A stretch of 64,000 bases of DNA from Planctomycetaceae bacterium. GTDB lineage: Bacteria > Planctomycetota > Planctomycetia > Planctomycetales > Planctomycetaceae. Position 1 is the first letter of the stretch. Each line of letters begins with the position of its first letter. This document shows, piece after piece, positions 11,013 through 48,618 of the stretch. The notes under the pieces are model-generated. The model was not told the origin of the DNA, ran no database searches, and saw nothing but the letters and a program-made list of their open reading frames with translations. The position numbers were made by a program, and so were the translations under genes. Where the stretch lies: assembly GCA_021732785.1 (NCBI GenBank), contig JAKFUG010000012.1, positions 186,001 through 250,000 of the forward strand, in the 5' to 3' direction.

Positions 11013-11142
11013 CTCGTTCCCATGCTCTGCGTGGGAACGCCGGGTTTCGACGCTCTGCGTCGTCTTCGATGATTTAGTCTCTACGACGTGCGACGCGGAG
11101 CGTCTCGGCCGCGTGTTCCCACGCGGAGCATGGGAACAAGTT
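11013..11142. repeat. Palindromic repeat, family A
   Basis: Ends are CTCGTTCCCATGCTC and its inverse near 11120-11142. The inner pair is GACGCTCTGCGTC / GACGCGGAGCGTC. Each arm (GTTCCCACGC-GCGTGGGAAC) can fold alone as well as with the other arm. Other copies: 13198-13329, 15133-15183 (half) and 20127-20257. Confidence 0.85.
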
Positions 11143-11171: not shown

Positions 11172-11738
11172 TCATTCGTCTCCGTCGAGACGATACATCA
11201 AGTCTGTTCGGGCGACGTACTTCACACCCGCAGTGACCACACTGCCTTCGTGAATGATGGGGTGTTGAAAGAGCAAGCCCATTCCGGTTTTGGGTTTAAT
11301 TGAGATCTCCGGTTCTGTCACGAACGTGGTGTTTCCTCCCTCAAATGCTTCATTGAGGTAGACGAGAAACGTGTAGAAACTCTGCTCGCACTCGCTGCGA
11401 TGAAAAGCACCATCCTTGTGCGGCGCGAATCGCATCCCAGGTTCATATCGATAGCAACGAAATCGTTCGTTGATGCCCACAAGTGACCGGCCGTGGATTT
11501 TCTTGGGCGCTTTATCTCGTATTCGATTGAGCAGCTTCTGTCCCAATTCTTCATCGTCGAAGATCACGCGATCATTGTTGCGCACATCAGTCTTCACTGC
11601 AACACCGGAGTAAGTATTGATCGTCGCCACTTCCGGCCCCAGCAATTCGATGCGAGTCACGAGTTCACTGCACTCGGAAGAGCTCAGCAAATTTGGCAAT
11701 TTGATGATGTACGGCTGCTCGCGATCAACTTCAAACAT
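11172..11738 (-). CDS. 2-oxoglutarate/Fe(II) oxygenase, prolyl 4-hydroxylase type
   Basis: 188 aa from the ATG at 11738; upstream in-frame starts lack homology and signals. The iron-binding HxD is at H107/D109 (RFAPHKDGAF) and the distal histidine at H163 (HPIIHEGSVV). K173 in GVKYVARTDL is in the place of the 2-oxoglutarate-binding basic residue, so the active site looks complete. A central LVYLNEAFEGGNTTF strand is typical of the P4Hc fold. No signal peptide, so the substrate is probably a cytosolic protein or small molecule. It is divergent from the Sm-like gene and next to RNA methyltransferases. A ribosome or translation-factor target is possible but only an inference. Confidence 0.8.
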   Translation of the reverse strand: MFEVDREQPYIIKLPNLLSSSECSELVTRIELLGPEVATINTYSGVAVKTDVRNNDRVIFDDEELGQKLLNRIRDKAPKKIHGRSLVGINERFRCYRYEPGMRFAPHKDGAFHRSECEQSFYTFLVYLNEAFEGGNTTFVTEPEISIKPKTGMGLLFQHPIIHEGSVVTAGVKYVARTDLMYRLDGDE

Positions 11739-11979
11739 TGTGTTTCCAAGTGAGATTGGATGTTGATGGACCGGCATTGAACGCCGTTGGTTTTTCGACG
11801 TCTTTGCTCGTAATTCTACCGGATATGGTCGTATTCTCAGAGTCTCAAAGAGAGCCAAGTCGACACGTTTTTCAGGCAATTTTCTGCCCTATTTCTTCAC
11901 TTGCCGACTGCTCTCCAACACCGGTGCAGTGTCGTCTACAATATCCTGTGATGGCTCGCTCAACGGGGGAGAAACAAGC

Positions 11980-12255
11980 ATGGCCGAACCAACCATCTGG
12001 GACGAATTCCGCGGGCAGGAAGTGGTGCTGGATGTCGTCAGCCAGTACGTGATCATCGGGACACTCGAACGGGTCGATACCCACTTCGCCACGCTGACCG
12101 ACGCCGATTGTCATGATCTCCGTGACAGTAAAACCACGCGCGACCTCTACGTGCTGCAAGCGCGACGGCACGGCGTCCGCCCCAATCGGCAAAGTCTGTC
12201 CGTCCGCCAGAACGAAATCGTCAGTCTGTCGCGGTTGGTGGATGTGATCGAGTAA
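11980..12255 (+). CDS. Small Sm-like (LSm/Hfq-fold) protein candidate
   Basis: 91 aa from the ATG at 11980, preceded by GGGGGAG. The pattern is that of an Sm fold: an N-terminal helix (IWDEFRG), then strands VVLDVVSQYVIIGTLERVD and HFATLTDADCHD, where the glycine and the following acidic turn resemble the Sm1 motif. A variable charged loop and a final strand pair, NEIVSLSRLVDVIE, resemble Sm2. Sm proteins form rings that bind RNA. I recognise no named family, so this is a fold-level inference. It is 158 bp upstream of rlmB on the same strand, with repeat B between them. Confidence 0.6.
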   Translation: MAEPTIWDEFRGQEVVLDVVSQYVIIGTLERVDTHFATLTDADCHDLRDSKTTRDLYVLQARRHGVRPNRQSLSVRQNEIVSLSRLVDVIE

Positions 12256-12275
12256 TCTCTTGAGATTCCTCATCC

Positions 12276-12344
12276 GTGTGCCACTGGCTCCGCCAGTGTC
12301 CTGGATTGCATCCATCAAAAACACTGGCAGAGCCAGTGGCACAC
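12276..12344. repeat. Palindromic repeat, family B
   Basis: Hairpin with arms GTGTGCCACTGGCTC and its inverse (AGAGCCAGTGGCACAC), loop of about 20 bp. Further copies at 29422-29508, 38617-38694 and 48538-48618. Between the Sm-like gene and rlmB. Confidence 0.9.
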
Positions 12345-12413
12345 ACGGGGATTTCGTATTGACCCCACAGCGATGGTCTCCCGGCGACTCGCCGGGGGCT
12401 AAGACGGTTTGCC

Positions 12414-13175
12414 ATGCCTCGCGAACGACAATCTCCGCGGAGTGTGAACCACAACCGAGCATGGTTATGGGGTCGGCACGCGGTTCTGGAAACTCTGCGG
12501 GCGGGGCGCTGGATTCCGTTGGAAGTTGCGCTGTCGCCGCGCTGTCCGGGCGATGTCGCTCAGGAAGTCTATCGATACACGCAAGAGCAAGCGGTTGCGT
12601 TGATCAAGGAAACGGACGCGGACCTCACCAAACGTTGCCGGTCGGAAGACCACCAAGGTCTTGCCGCCCGGTTGCCGGAGTTTCCGTATGCGGACTTCGA
12701 GGAAATCTGCGAAACCGCGAGCGTGTGGTTGGTGCTCGATCGCATTCACGATTCGCACAATTTCGGGGCGATGGTCCGCTCGGCGGTCGGCCTCGGCGTG
12801 GACGCGGTACTCGTCGGCGAGACGGAACAATCGGCGGTCAATCGCCAGGTGGTGCAAAGTTCCGCGGGGGCGGTGAATCTGCTGCCGATCGTGCGGGTTT
12901 CCAGCCTCGTGGAGACGATCCATGCTTTGCACGGCCGCGGCGTGAAAATCGTTGCGGCAACGGAAAAAGCCGAGCACACGATTTTCACCGCCGATTTGCG
13001 ACCACCGGTGGCGATCATCATCGGCAACGAAGGCCGCGGGGTCGACACAGCCTTGTTGGAGCGTTGCACGTTGCCAGTGCGGATTCCGATGGCCAATCAA
13101 CTCGGCTCGCTCAACGCCGCCGTGGCCGCGGGGATTGTGTGTTATGAAGTGCTGCGGCAGAAATCCGAGATGTAG
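12414..13175 (+). CDS. rlmB: 23S rRNA 2'-O-methyltransferase, RlmB type (SpoU family)
   Basis: 253 aa. The N-terminal substrate-binding part starts LWGRHAVLETLRAG, typical of RlmB/TrmH. The SPOUT catalytic domain (about 100-250) has the three SpoU motifs: LDRIHDSHNFGAMVRSA, IIIGNEGRGVD and IPMANQLGSLNAAVAAGI. It would methylate the ribose 2'-OH of a guanosine (G2251 in E. coli 23S rRNA) using SAM, as a knotted dimer. The next gene is a second SpoU paralogue. The stop TAG is the start of the TAGGGTGGAACGAGT repeat also seen at 10745. Confidence 0.88.
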   Translation: MPRERQSPRSVNHNRAWLWGRHAVLETLRAGRWIPLEVALSPRCPGDVAQEVYRYTQEQAVALIKETDADLTKRCRSEDHQGLAARLPEFPYADFEEICETASVWLVLDRIHDSHNFGAMVRSAVGLGVDAVLVGETEQSAVNRQVVQSSAGAVNLLPIVRVSSLVETIHALHGRGVKIVAATEKAEHTIFTADLRPPVAIIIGNEGRGVDTALLERCTLPVRIPMANQLGSLNAAVAAGIVCYEVLRQKSEM

Positions 13176-13197
13176 GGTGGAACGAGTTCGCGAGTTG

Positions 13198-13329
13198 AAC
13201 TCGTTCCCACGCTCCGCGTGGGAACGCCGGGTCGAGACGCTCTGCGTCGTCTTGGTCTAATGTTCAATCAGCGATTGCGACGCGGAGCGTCGCGGCCGTG
13301 TGTTCCCACGCAGAGCGTGGGAACAAGTT
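13198..13329. repeat. Palindromic repeat, family A
   Basis: Full-length copy with both arms between rlmB and the second SpoU gene. When translated it produces a false N-terminal extension (FPRRAWEQ) of the downstream frame. A short family L fragment (GAATTTCGGATTT, 13384-13413) follows immediately before the next start codon. Confidence 0.88.
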
Positions 13330-13419
13330 CGTCACACCCGCGTTTCGCTCAGCGAGTGCGCAGCTTATGATCTCGTCTTTCCTTCTGATTTCGACATTCG
13401 AATTTCGGATTTTCCCTCC

Positions 13420-14166
13420 ATGTCCCTGACGCTGAAAAACCCGCACAGTGTTCTCGCCGCTTTGGCTTGCCGGCCGCATGATGTACTCGAAGTGCGGTTG
13501 CCCCCGCATCGGCCTTCGGATGCGTGGTCGCAGGTCGGCGACATGGCCCGGACCGCGGGAATTCCGGTCCGCACCGAACTGGGCGAGTCCACCGGCGGAC
13601 GCTTCAACAAGCTCGAAAAACACGAACGGACCAGTGCCGCCTCGGCGACCATTCGCGAGCATGTGGAATCGCCCGTCGAGATGCAGTGGGCGAATTTGGA
13701 ACAACCGTTTGGCGTCTGGCTGGCTCTCGATTGTCTGCAAGACCCGCACAATGTCGGGGCCATTTTCCGCTCCGCCGCCTTTTTCGGCATCCGGGGGGTG
13801 ATCCTGACGAAAGACCGCTCGGCACCACTCACCGGCACCGCCTATGATGTCGCCTCCGGCGGAATGGAGCACGTTCCGTTCGCGCAGGTCACGAACCTGG
13901 CTGCGGCATTGAAGTCGGCAAAGGAAGCCGGACTGTGGATCCTCGGCAGTTCCGAACACGCCCCGCGCGATGTGCAGGAGATTCCCCGCGATCGCCACTG
14001 GTTACTCGTCATCGGCAATGAAGAACAGGGATTGCGGCGGCTGACACTCGACCTGTGCGATGATGTCTGCCGCATCGCGCCGCAAGGGGCGGTGGGATCG
14101 CTCAACGCCTCGGTTGCAGCGGGGGTCATGATGTCGATGCTGACACGCCCCGTCACAACTCCGTAA
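13420..14166 (+). CDS. SpoU/TrmH family RNA 2'-O-methyltransferase
   Basis: 248 aa from the ATG at 13420; upstream in-frame codons come from repeat DNA. The N-terminal domain (NPHSVLAALACRPHDVLEV) resembles the RlmB substrate-binding domain. The SPOUT part has LDCLQDPHNVGAIFRSA, VIGNEEQGLRRL and GSLNASVAAGVMM, so the SAM knot and catalytic arginine region are intact. The target nucleotide (tRNA or rRNA guanosine) cannot be told from sequence. It is a divergent paralogue of rlmB. The stop TAA abuts the hairpin at 14166-14233. Confidence 0.85.
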   Translation: MSLTLKNPHSVLAALACRPHDVLEVRLPPHRPSDAWSQVGDMARTAGIPVRTELGESTGGRFNKLEKHERTSAASATIREHVESPVEMQWANLEQPFGVWLALDCLQDPHNVGAIFRSAAFFGIRGVILTKDRSAPLTGTAYDVASGGMEHVPFAQVTNLAAALKSAKEAGLWILGSSEHAPRDVQEIPRDRHWLLVIGNEEQGLRRLTLDLCDDVCRIAPQGAVGSLNASVAAGVMMSMLTRPVTTP

Positions 14167-14233
14167 CAAGCCGGAAGCGCGAGCGCCCGGTTCTTCTCCG
14201 GAAAAGAACCGGGCGCTGGAGCTTCCGGCTTGT
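14166..14233. terminator. Large hairpin between convergent genes (repeat family F), possible two-way terminator
   Basis: The outer stem pairs ACAAGCCGGAAGC (14166-14178) with its exact complement at 14221-14233. The inner 14-bp stem pairs AGCGCCCGGTTCTT (14182-14195) with 14204-14217 around an 8-base loop. It sits between two convergent stop codons, which suits a bidirectional terminator, but there is no strong T-run. Confidence 0.7.
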
Positions 14234-14237
14234 AAAG

Positions 14238-15062
14238 TCACTCCACGGGCGGTTGCCAGTCACCCCAGTGCGAGAGGTATTCTGCATACGCGGGGATGGC
14301 CACGGACTGTTGTTCCAGCCACGTCTTTGTCTCGGTGACAAGCTGGTGTTCGGCTTCGACGGTCAGCTTGCCGAGGATCACCCGCGATCGCAGAAAGACA
14401 AAGTACGTGTCGAGGACATCGCATCGGCAGTAATCGTTGACCTTCTGCTTTTCCCCGGCGTCCCAATAATCCTGCACCTGCGAGCCATCCATTCCCGACT
14501 TGCCCGGCTTGCCGATGAGGTTTGCCAGCAAGTTCAACCCGCCGGTCAACTTGCCCGCGCCGAAGTTCGAGAGCAGATCGTATAGATCGAGATGGGCTTC
14601 GGAATTGTAGCGGTTGCGGGCCTGTTCAAAGCTGCGGGCTTCGACATTGAACCACGCGGGGACGGCATAACCGTAGCGAAACGCCGCCAATTCCAGCACC
14701 GGCAGGTCGTAACCGCGGCCGTTGAAGCTGACGAGCGTTGGCCGTCCGTAATGATTCCACCCGGTCCAGAAGAGCCGCGTGATGACGTGCGGCCGGTACA
14801 GCGGGGCATCGAGCGTGACCAGATCGAGCAGTCGGTAACTCGCATCCACCTTCGCCACCGCCACGGACGCCGGCAGGACAAACGTCGTCGGCAACACATC
14901 ACGGCCGACGTCGTCCATCAACTCCTTGCGATACCGCGCCGTCGCCGCTGATGCAGTGAGGCCATCGTCGGGATACCGCACTTTGGCGATGAGATCCCCA
15001 TCGGCGATCGATTCGATATCGAAGATGAGATAAGCCACTCCACCGCGGCGTTCGTCGGTCAT
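14238..15062 (-). CDS. Predicted 3'-5' exonuclease, PolB-like DEDD family
   Basis: 274 aa. The DEDD catalytic acids are visible: LIFDIES near residues 12-18 (ExoI), [19 protein letters not shown] (ExoII), and [17 protein letters not shown] with the last aspartates (ExoIII). [15 protein letters not shown] in the middle is also characteristic of this stand-alone PolB-exonuclease-like family. It would degrade single-stranded DNA or RNA from the 3' end with two metal ions; the physiological substrate is unknown. It is cytosolic and converges on the SpoU gene. Confidence 0.87.
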
Positions 15063-15072
15063 GGGGGATTCC

Positions 15073-15183
15073 GGAGAGAGTCGAGAGCGGAGGGTCGAGA
15101 GTCAAGAGCCAGAAAATTGATGAATGCGATTGAACTCGTTCCCATGCTCCGCGTGGGAACGCACGGCCGCGACGCTCTGCGTC
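15073..15183. repeat. Half-copies of repeat families H and A
   Basis: 15073-15111 is a single H arm (GAGAGTCGAGAGC... ending AGAGCCAGA). 15133-15183 is a single left arm of A (AACTCGTTCCCATGCTC... GACGCTCTGCGTC). Neither has its partner arm, so both look truncated. The rest of the spacer to 15277 shows no gene. Confidence 0.75.
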
Positions 15184-20055: not shown

Positions 20056-20369
20056 GGGAGTCGTGAGCGGAGAGTCGAGAGTCGAGAGCCAGAACGCCGC
20101 GGGGCGGAAATTCCAAGTTCCAAATTAACTCGTTCCCATGCTCCGCGTGGGAACGCACGGTCCCGACGCTCCGCGTCGAAGTCTTGCATGGTACATGCTC
20201 CTCGCGACGCAGAGCGTCGCAGCCCTGCGTTCCCACGCAGAGCGTGGGAACGAGTCGAAATTCCAAATTCCAAACGAAGAGGATGCAACTCGATGCGTTC
20301 CCTTTCTTCGTTTGGAATTTGGAATTTGGCCCTTGTTTGGAACTTGGAATTTGAAACTTGGAACTTCCT
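20056..20369. repeat. Composite of repeat families H, K and A inside the liv operon
   Basis: In order: a half copy of H (20056-20094), the left arm of K (20107-20126), a complete A element (20127-20257), then the rest of K (20258-20369), ending just before the livG ribosome binding site. This 334-bp livM-livG spacer contains no gene. Confidence 0.85.
20127..20257. mobile_element. Family A element inserted into repeat K with apparent 5-bp duplication
   Basis: 131 bp with inverted ends ACTCGTTCCC / GGGAACGAGT. It is flanked by AAATT at 20122-20126 and 20258-20262. Removing the element and one AAATT rebuilds an uninterrupted K arm (GTTCCAAATTCCAAATTCC). No coding capacity, so it would need a transposase supplied elsewhere. 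Confidence 0.7.
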
Positions 20370-29421: not shown

Positions 29422-29508
29422 GTGTGCCACTGGCTCTGCCAGTGTTTTTGTCCGTGGTGGACCGGGTTCAAGCACACCAGAAAGACACTGGCAAGGCCAG
29501 TGGCACAC
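29422..29508. repeat. Palindromic repeat, family B
   Basis: Arms GTGTGCCACTGGCTC and its inverse with two mismatches, spacer about 45 bp. It lies in the 321-bp gap before the VOC gene, which has no other feature. Confidence 0.88.
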
Positions 29509-38616: not shown

Positions 38617-38694
38617 GTGTGCCACTGGCTCTGCCAGTGCAATTCACGGGTTGCGTTCATTCGGGTAAAGACACTGGCAGAGCCAGTGGCACAC
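38617..38694. repeat. Palindromic repeat, family B
   Basis: Arms GTGTGCCACTGGCTCTGCCA and its exact inverse, spacer about 35 bp, between the redoxin gene and the 584-aa gene. Confidence 0.92.
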
Positions 38695-48537: not shown

Positions 48538-48618
48538 GTGTGCCACTGGCTCTGCCAGTGTTCTTTTATTGATCGTTGACATCGTTTCTCAAAGACACTG
48601 GCAGAGCCAGTGGCACAC
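48538..48618. repeat. Palindromic repeat, family B
   Basis: Exact inverted arms GTGTGCCACTGGCTCTGCCA and inverse, between the SGNH esterase and the next hydrolase gene; the right arm ends 11 bases before the next start codon. Confidence 0.93.

Follow-up and report, generated by a model that had tools for sequence, protein, structure and literature searches.

The 91-residue protein encoded at 11980-12255 on the plus strand of the window (the whole 64,000-nucleotide stretch of planctomycete DNA analyzed here) is a stand-alone, single-copy member of a new Sm-fold family, which is conserved across Planctomycetota and separate from Hfq. A preliminary description of this DNA had proposed that the protein is Sm-like and that it belongs with four flanking genes to an RNA-handling neighborhood; its call on the fold was correct, but the proposed cluster does not hold up. 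The best explanation offered by our analysis, held tentatively, is that this Sm-fold protein may bind RNA on its L4 face, beside neighbors that are incidental.

A conserved family without annotation

A check of the open reading frames found all five genes where the preliminary description had placed them, and the 91-residue protein indeed belongs to no family in Pfam, NCBIfam, or PHROG; literature searches likewise returned no description of it. Of 59 related genomes, 46 carry the family as a single copy with an open frame, indicating that it represents a real, conserved gene. Because it is missing from the remaining 13, it is not indispensable. Searching the contigs of GTDB species with the most conserved peptide yielded 150 confirmed relatives, and the 80 that are listed are Planctomycetota by title, save one titled only "bacterium." A phylum-wide scan with the family profile, which detects the window type and a sister type together, was positive in 91 of 199 genomes.

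All 100 window-type relatives examined are acidic (pI 4.6-6.8) and consist of a single domain of no more than 115 residues; fusion partners in long open frames were thus discounted. Membership in a defense system was rejected on the lack of a PADLOC match, and a phage link on the lack of a PHROG match. A viral fold search with the protein returned mostly uncharacterized Sm-like proteins.

Predicted fold

AlphaFold2 modeling of a single chain with 28 family sequences (pLDDT 94.0, pTM 0.83) gave the order H6-9, E14-19, E23-32, E36-46, H54-64, E70-76, and E80-85, that is, the short N-terminal helix and five-stranded bent β-barrel that define the Sm/LSm fold, with an extra helix (54-64) that separates strand 3 from strand 4. 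Fold searches against the PDB with Foldseek and VIA-align retrieved Sm/LSm-fold chains throughout the top 50 of each listing. The leading matches were all archaeal or eukaryotic and included archaeal SmAP1, LSm1-8, spliceosomal Sm proteins, the LSm subunit of NatC, Edc3, and LSM14; the best VIA-align match had a Z score of 10.2 and an rmsd of 2.8 over 73 aligned residues. No Hfq chain was present among the best 50 matches listed in either search, which does not speak against a similarity to Hfq.

Several sequence matches point in the same direction. LSM (PF01423) was weakly matched by 18 of 101 members (best E 1.2e-4), as was the archaeal "small nuclear ribonucleoprotein" model PRK00737 by nine (best 4e-4). 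In a PDB sequence search, six of the eight best matches were LSm2 chains, again weak, with LSm2 and 1ycy at the top (E ~0.05). The window protein itself did not match PF01423, and none of the 59 genomes exceeded the cut-off of that model (23.4 bits). Each of these hints is weak alone; combined with the predicted fold, they leave little doubt about the Sm topology of the family.

Conserved residues cluster on loop L4

Conservation is concentrated in codons 43-70 (12106-12189, plus strand), which cover the end of strand 3, loop L4, the inserted helix, and the start of strand 4. Among 101 sequences, D18, G27, D43, Y57, and R70 are invariant, H45, D46, G65, N69, and D88 are almost invariant, and position 55 is Glu in 98 and Asp in three, with the near-invariant residues clustering on L4 and its extra helix. 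Positions 43-49 carry 3.68 bits, whereas L3 (33-36, 1.74 bits) and L5 (76-79, 1.91 bits) are among the lowest in the protein (p ~0.008 by column resampling).

The canonical uridine pocket, composed of a His or aromatic residue and Asn from Sm1 and an Arg from Sm2, is not retained. The L3 segment is variable and lacks Asn, the Sm1 Asn being gapped out in the alignment to LSm2; position 76 is Arg in 65 of the 101 sequences, and the RG pair is absent. In archaeal Sm proteins, the pocket residues His37, Asn39, and Arg63 are conserved together with Asp35 and Lys22 (PMC10221803), and loop L4 is variable (PMC4500138). Because L4 is conserved in the present family and the L3/L5 pocket positions are variable, we infer that the working face is on the L4 side. 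An RNA ligand stays plausible there, since the L4/distal face of Hfq binds A-rich RNA (PMC4500138).

Gene neighborhood

The domain names given in the preliminary description were all recovered. Divergent from the Sm gene lies a 2OG-Fe(II) oxygenase gene (11172-11738, minus strand; PF13640, 2.1e-10), whose likely start is the ATG at 11738 (188 residues), not a TTG giving 235 residues. Two SpoU methyltransferase genes on the plus strand (12414-13175 and 13420-14166) match PF00588 at 2.5e-37 and 6.2e-36; the former is of the RlmB type, passing the TIGR00186 cut-off of 160.15 bits with 168 bits, and the latter falls below it with 154.8 bits. The last gene (14238-15062, minus strand) encodes a predicted DEDD-type 3'-5' exonuclease (PF10108, PolB-exonuclease-like, 2.8e-53). 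Two consecutive SpoU genes had been considered unusual; yet the other SpoU gene adjoins in 12 of the 21 family genomes with a strong orthologue of the second, in most cases without the Sm gene.

The neighborhood was examined in 80 named loci by tblastn of the window genes and by clustering of open reading frames. Gene order breaks up rapidly. In the nearest sister genome, a member of the same genus (locus L031), the part that can be aligned to the window comprises gpsA, the Sm gene, and both SpoU genes; the alignment stops after the second SpoU gene, and only ~235 bp are found where the window has the oxygenase. A second locus from this genus (L032) has none of the set besides the Sm gene, and elsewhere even the four retained in L031 separate. 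By tblastn, the SpoU pair adjoins the Sm gene only in L031, and in L044 and L058 it is found ~4.5 kb upstream; L049 has a weak RlmB-like match nearby, and gpsA is near the Sm gene only in L031 and L110. The oxygenase, the exonuclease, and a ZIP gene are near it in none of the 80 loci, L031 included. The commonest neighbor by clustering occurred in 12 of the 80 loci and varied in its position, and neither method revealed a widely recurring flanking gene family.

The genes for the oxygenase, the SpoU enzymes, and the exonuclease next to the Sm gene are therefore incidental neighbors. That the five genes form a single RNA-processing unit, as originally proposed, is suggested by their adjacency in this genome, by the order kept in L031, and by the upstream SpoU pairs of L044 and L058. 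Most loci, however, have no gene of the set near the Sm gene, the genes occupy mixed strands, and a dispersed repeat separates the Sm gene from the SpoU genes; together with the absence of the oxygenase and exonuclease from all 80 loci, this refutes a conserved unit and makes the proposal extremely improbable.

In 10 loci (L059, L060, L061, L062, L072, L076, L082, L092, L096, and L108), the Sm-like gene is preceded by a divergently oriented gene that we named RNase D-like from its sequence. These loci are all of the Gemmata/Isosphaera type, and some have intervening genes; the linkage was judged too weak to serve as a mechanism.

Downstream of the Sm gene and ahead of the first SpoU gene lies a strongly folding palindrome with GTGTGCCACTGGC ends (12276-12344). 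The genome carries 125 copies of its end 13-mer on each strand, so the palindrome is a dispersed repeat that lies outside the Sm system, and the hairpin 3' of the Sm gene was rejected as a specific RNA or terminator. Further copies of the element are found in the window at 29422-29508, 38617-38694, and 48538-48618. A second intergenic repeat, consisting of GTTCCCACGC..GCGTGGGAAC palindromes that are often paired at ~100 bp spacing, is located at 11016-11137, 13203-13324, 15138-15160, and 20132-20251.

A sister subfamily linked to bacilliredoxin

The family profile also draws in a sister Sm-like subfamily from other classes of Planctomycetota (L122-L141). The two types are homologous over 87 columns (hhalign probability 99.1%, 28% identity), and the sister is likewise predicted to adopt the Sm fold (pLDDT 89.6). 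It forms a separate monophyletic clade (support 0.987) with MGTFH and ELHGIT motifs of its own, and R70 and N69, near-invariant in the window type, are not so in the sister.

The sister also differs in being linked in operons to the PF06491 bacilliredoxin. Among 57 genomes with a strong sister match, 56 carry PF06491, and in 38 the bacilliredoxin gene lies directly upstream on the same strand (Fisher p = 1.4e-23, a value that ignores shared ancestry and is thus overstated). Fusions of the sister protein to an A-type Fe-S carrier occur in two loci (L123 and L125). A FeS_assembly_P gene is located upstream of the sister gene in L122, and two or three tandem sister-type genes adjoin the bacilliredoxin gene in L141 and in genomes G080, G104, G143, G160, G176, G191, and G246. 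PF06491 was found in none of the 59 class relatives of the window genome and in 20 of 63 window-type genomes, compared with 92 of 199 across the phylum; both Sm types occur together in seven genomes. These ties to bacilliredoxin and an Fe-S carrier are the strongest reason why RNA binding cannot be assumed from the fold.

Possible functions

RNA binding by the 91-residue protein is a credible possibility, albeit one that stops short of being probable. As other Sm proteins do, the protein would assemble via strands 4 and 5, and it would leave the canonical L3/L5 uridine pocket unused; the site would instead lie on the opposite, L4 side, where D43, H45, D46, R48, R/K54, E55, Y57, N69, and R70 may surround the extra helix. 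Its ligand would most likely be RNA (mRNA or small RNA), bound much as the Hfq distal face binds A-rich RNA. The Sm fold, the weak LSM, PRK00737, and LSm2 matches, the absence of Hfq, the single copy, the conserved segment 43-70, the 10 loci with a divergent RNase D-like gene, and the Hfq precedent for binding on the L4 face (PMC4500138) all support this proposal. Against it stand the loss or variability of the uridine-specifying residues of archaeal Sm proteins (His37, Asn39, and Arg63; PMC10221803), the acidity of all 100 relatives, a linkage to RNA genes that is not family-wide, the redox and Fe-S associations of the sister, and the 13 of 59 relatives lacking the gene. Acidity was not accepted as proof against RNA binding, as archaeal Lsm proteins span pI 3.75-9.75 (PMC10221803).

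The same acidity and missing uridine pocket would also suit an Sm-fold adaptor or ligand binder that acts not on RNA but in thiol redox or Fe-S chemistry, like the sister subfamily, with the window type of Planctomycetia serving a different redox partner instead of bacilliredoxin. Such a role is possible but doubtful. The homology and shared fold of a sister encoded directly downstream of PF06491, its fusions to an Fe-S carrier, and fold matches to LSm chains of protein complexes (NatC subunit 6ygb, Edc3 6am0, and LSM14 6f9w) argue for it; however, bacilliredoxin was found in none of the 59 class members, the window type is neither associated with it nor accompanied by a redox neighbor, and R70 and N69 are nearly invariant in this type but not in the sister. 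A third reading is that the protein is a monomeric or dimeric small β-barrel of Sm topology that builds no ring, its conserved L4 residues only stapling the inserted helix to the barrel. The AlphaFold2 model is of a single chain, and the polar residues grouped closely about the helix (D43, H45, D46, E55, Y57, N69, and R70) could be a structural network; yet side chains conserved family-wide, including H45 and Y57, seem to exceed what a helix staple usually needs, and we regard this reading as improbable.

A 2023 review gives Hfq as the bacterial member of the Sm superfamily (PMC10221803); as a conserved, unannotated, non-Hfq Sm fold in a phylum where Hfq is essentially missing, the present family is a concrete candidate for small-RNA handling in planctomycetes. 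For this phylum, no low-molecular-weight thiol has reportedly been documented or predicted (PMC6282198), and the bacilliredoxin-linked sister gives a first genetic entry point to its thiol redox. More speculatively, and on balance rather unlikely, Planctomycetota may possess their own Sm lineage, nearer in fold to archaeal and eukaryotic LSm proteins, with two ancient paralogues: a general RNA-binding ring whose face has moved to L4 and a bacilliredoxin-coupled form.

Comparison with known Sm-fold proteins

DUF6897/MM0924 was considered as a possible home for the family. PF21838 was matched by 11 of 101 members (best 5.1e-6) and NF041655 by 10 (best 1.4e-4), and one distant member (L084) exceeds the PF21838 cut-off (24.5 vs 23.9 bits). 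The case for membership is weak: the window protein has no such match, and PF21838 was found in 0 of 40 relatives in a genome scan with a Methanosarcina genome as positive control. Moreover, the 58 positions of PF21838 lack the helix region of the 91-residue family.

With Hfq (PF17209), the protein shares the Sm superfamily fold, a bacterial host, and a length of ~90 residues, but it has no Hfq-like Sm2 motif and carries a helix between strands 3 and 4. The Hfq model was silent in all 59 relatives, the window's own genome included, while five control genomes were positive, and Hfq membership was therefore rejected. Across 199 phylum genomes, one Hfq-type domain scored above the cut-off and three more fell below it; the single hit is in a basic protein of 367 residues (L117, 1372-2475, minus strand), which has an Hfq-like segment close to its C-terminus.

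The closest resemblance is to archaeal SmAP and eukaryotic LSm proteins (PF01423, PRK00737, and LSm2), which supply both the best fold matches and the weak sequence matches. The order helix-β1-β2-β3-β4-β5 is common to them, as is an Sm1-like pattern of V-V-x-D, G-x-L, and an Asp in L3. The planctomycete family differs in its extra L4 helix, in the missing Sm1 Asn, and in not keeping the Sm2 RG. Its conserved L4 and variable L3 and L5 are the reverse of the pattern seen in archaeal SmAPs (PMC4500138).
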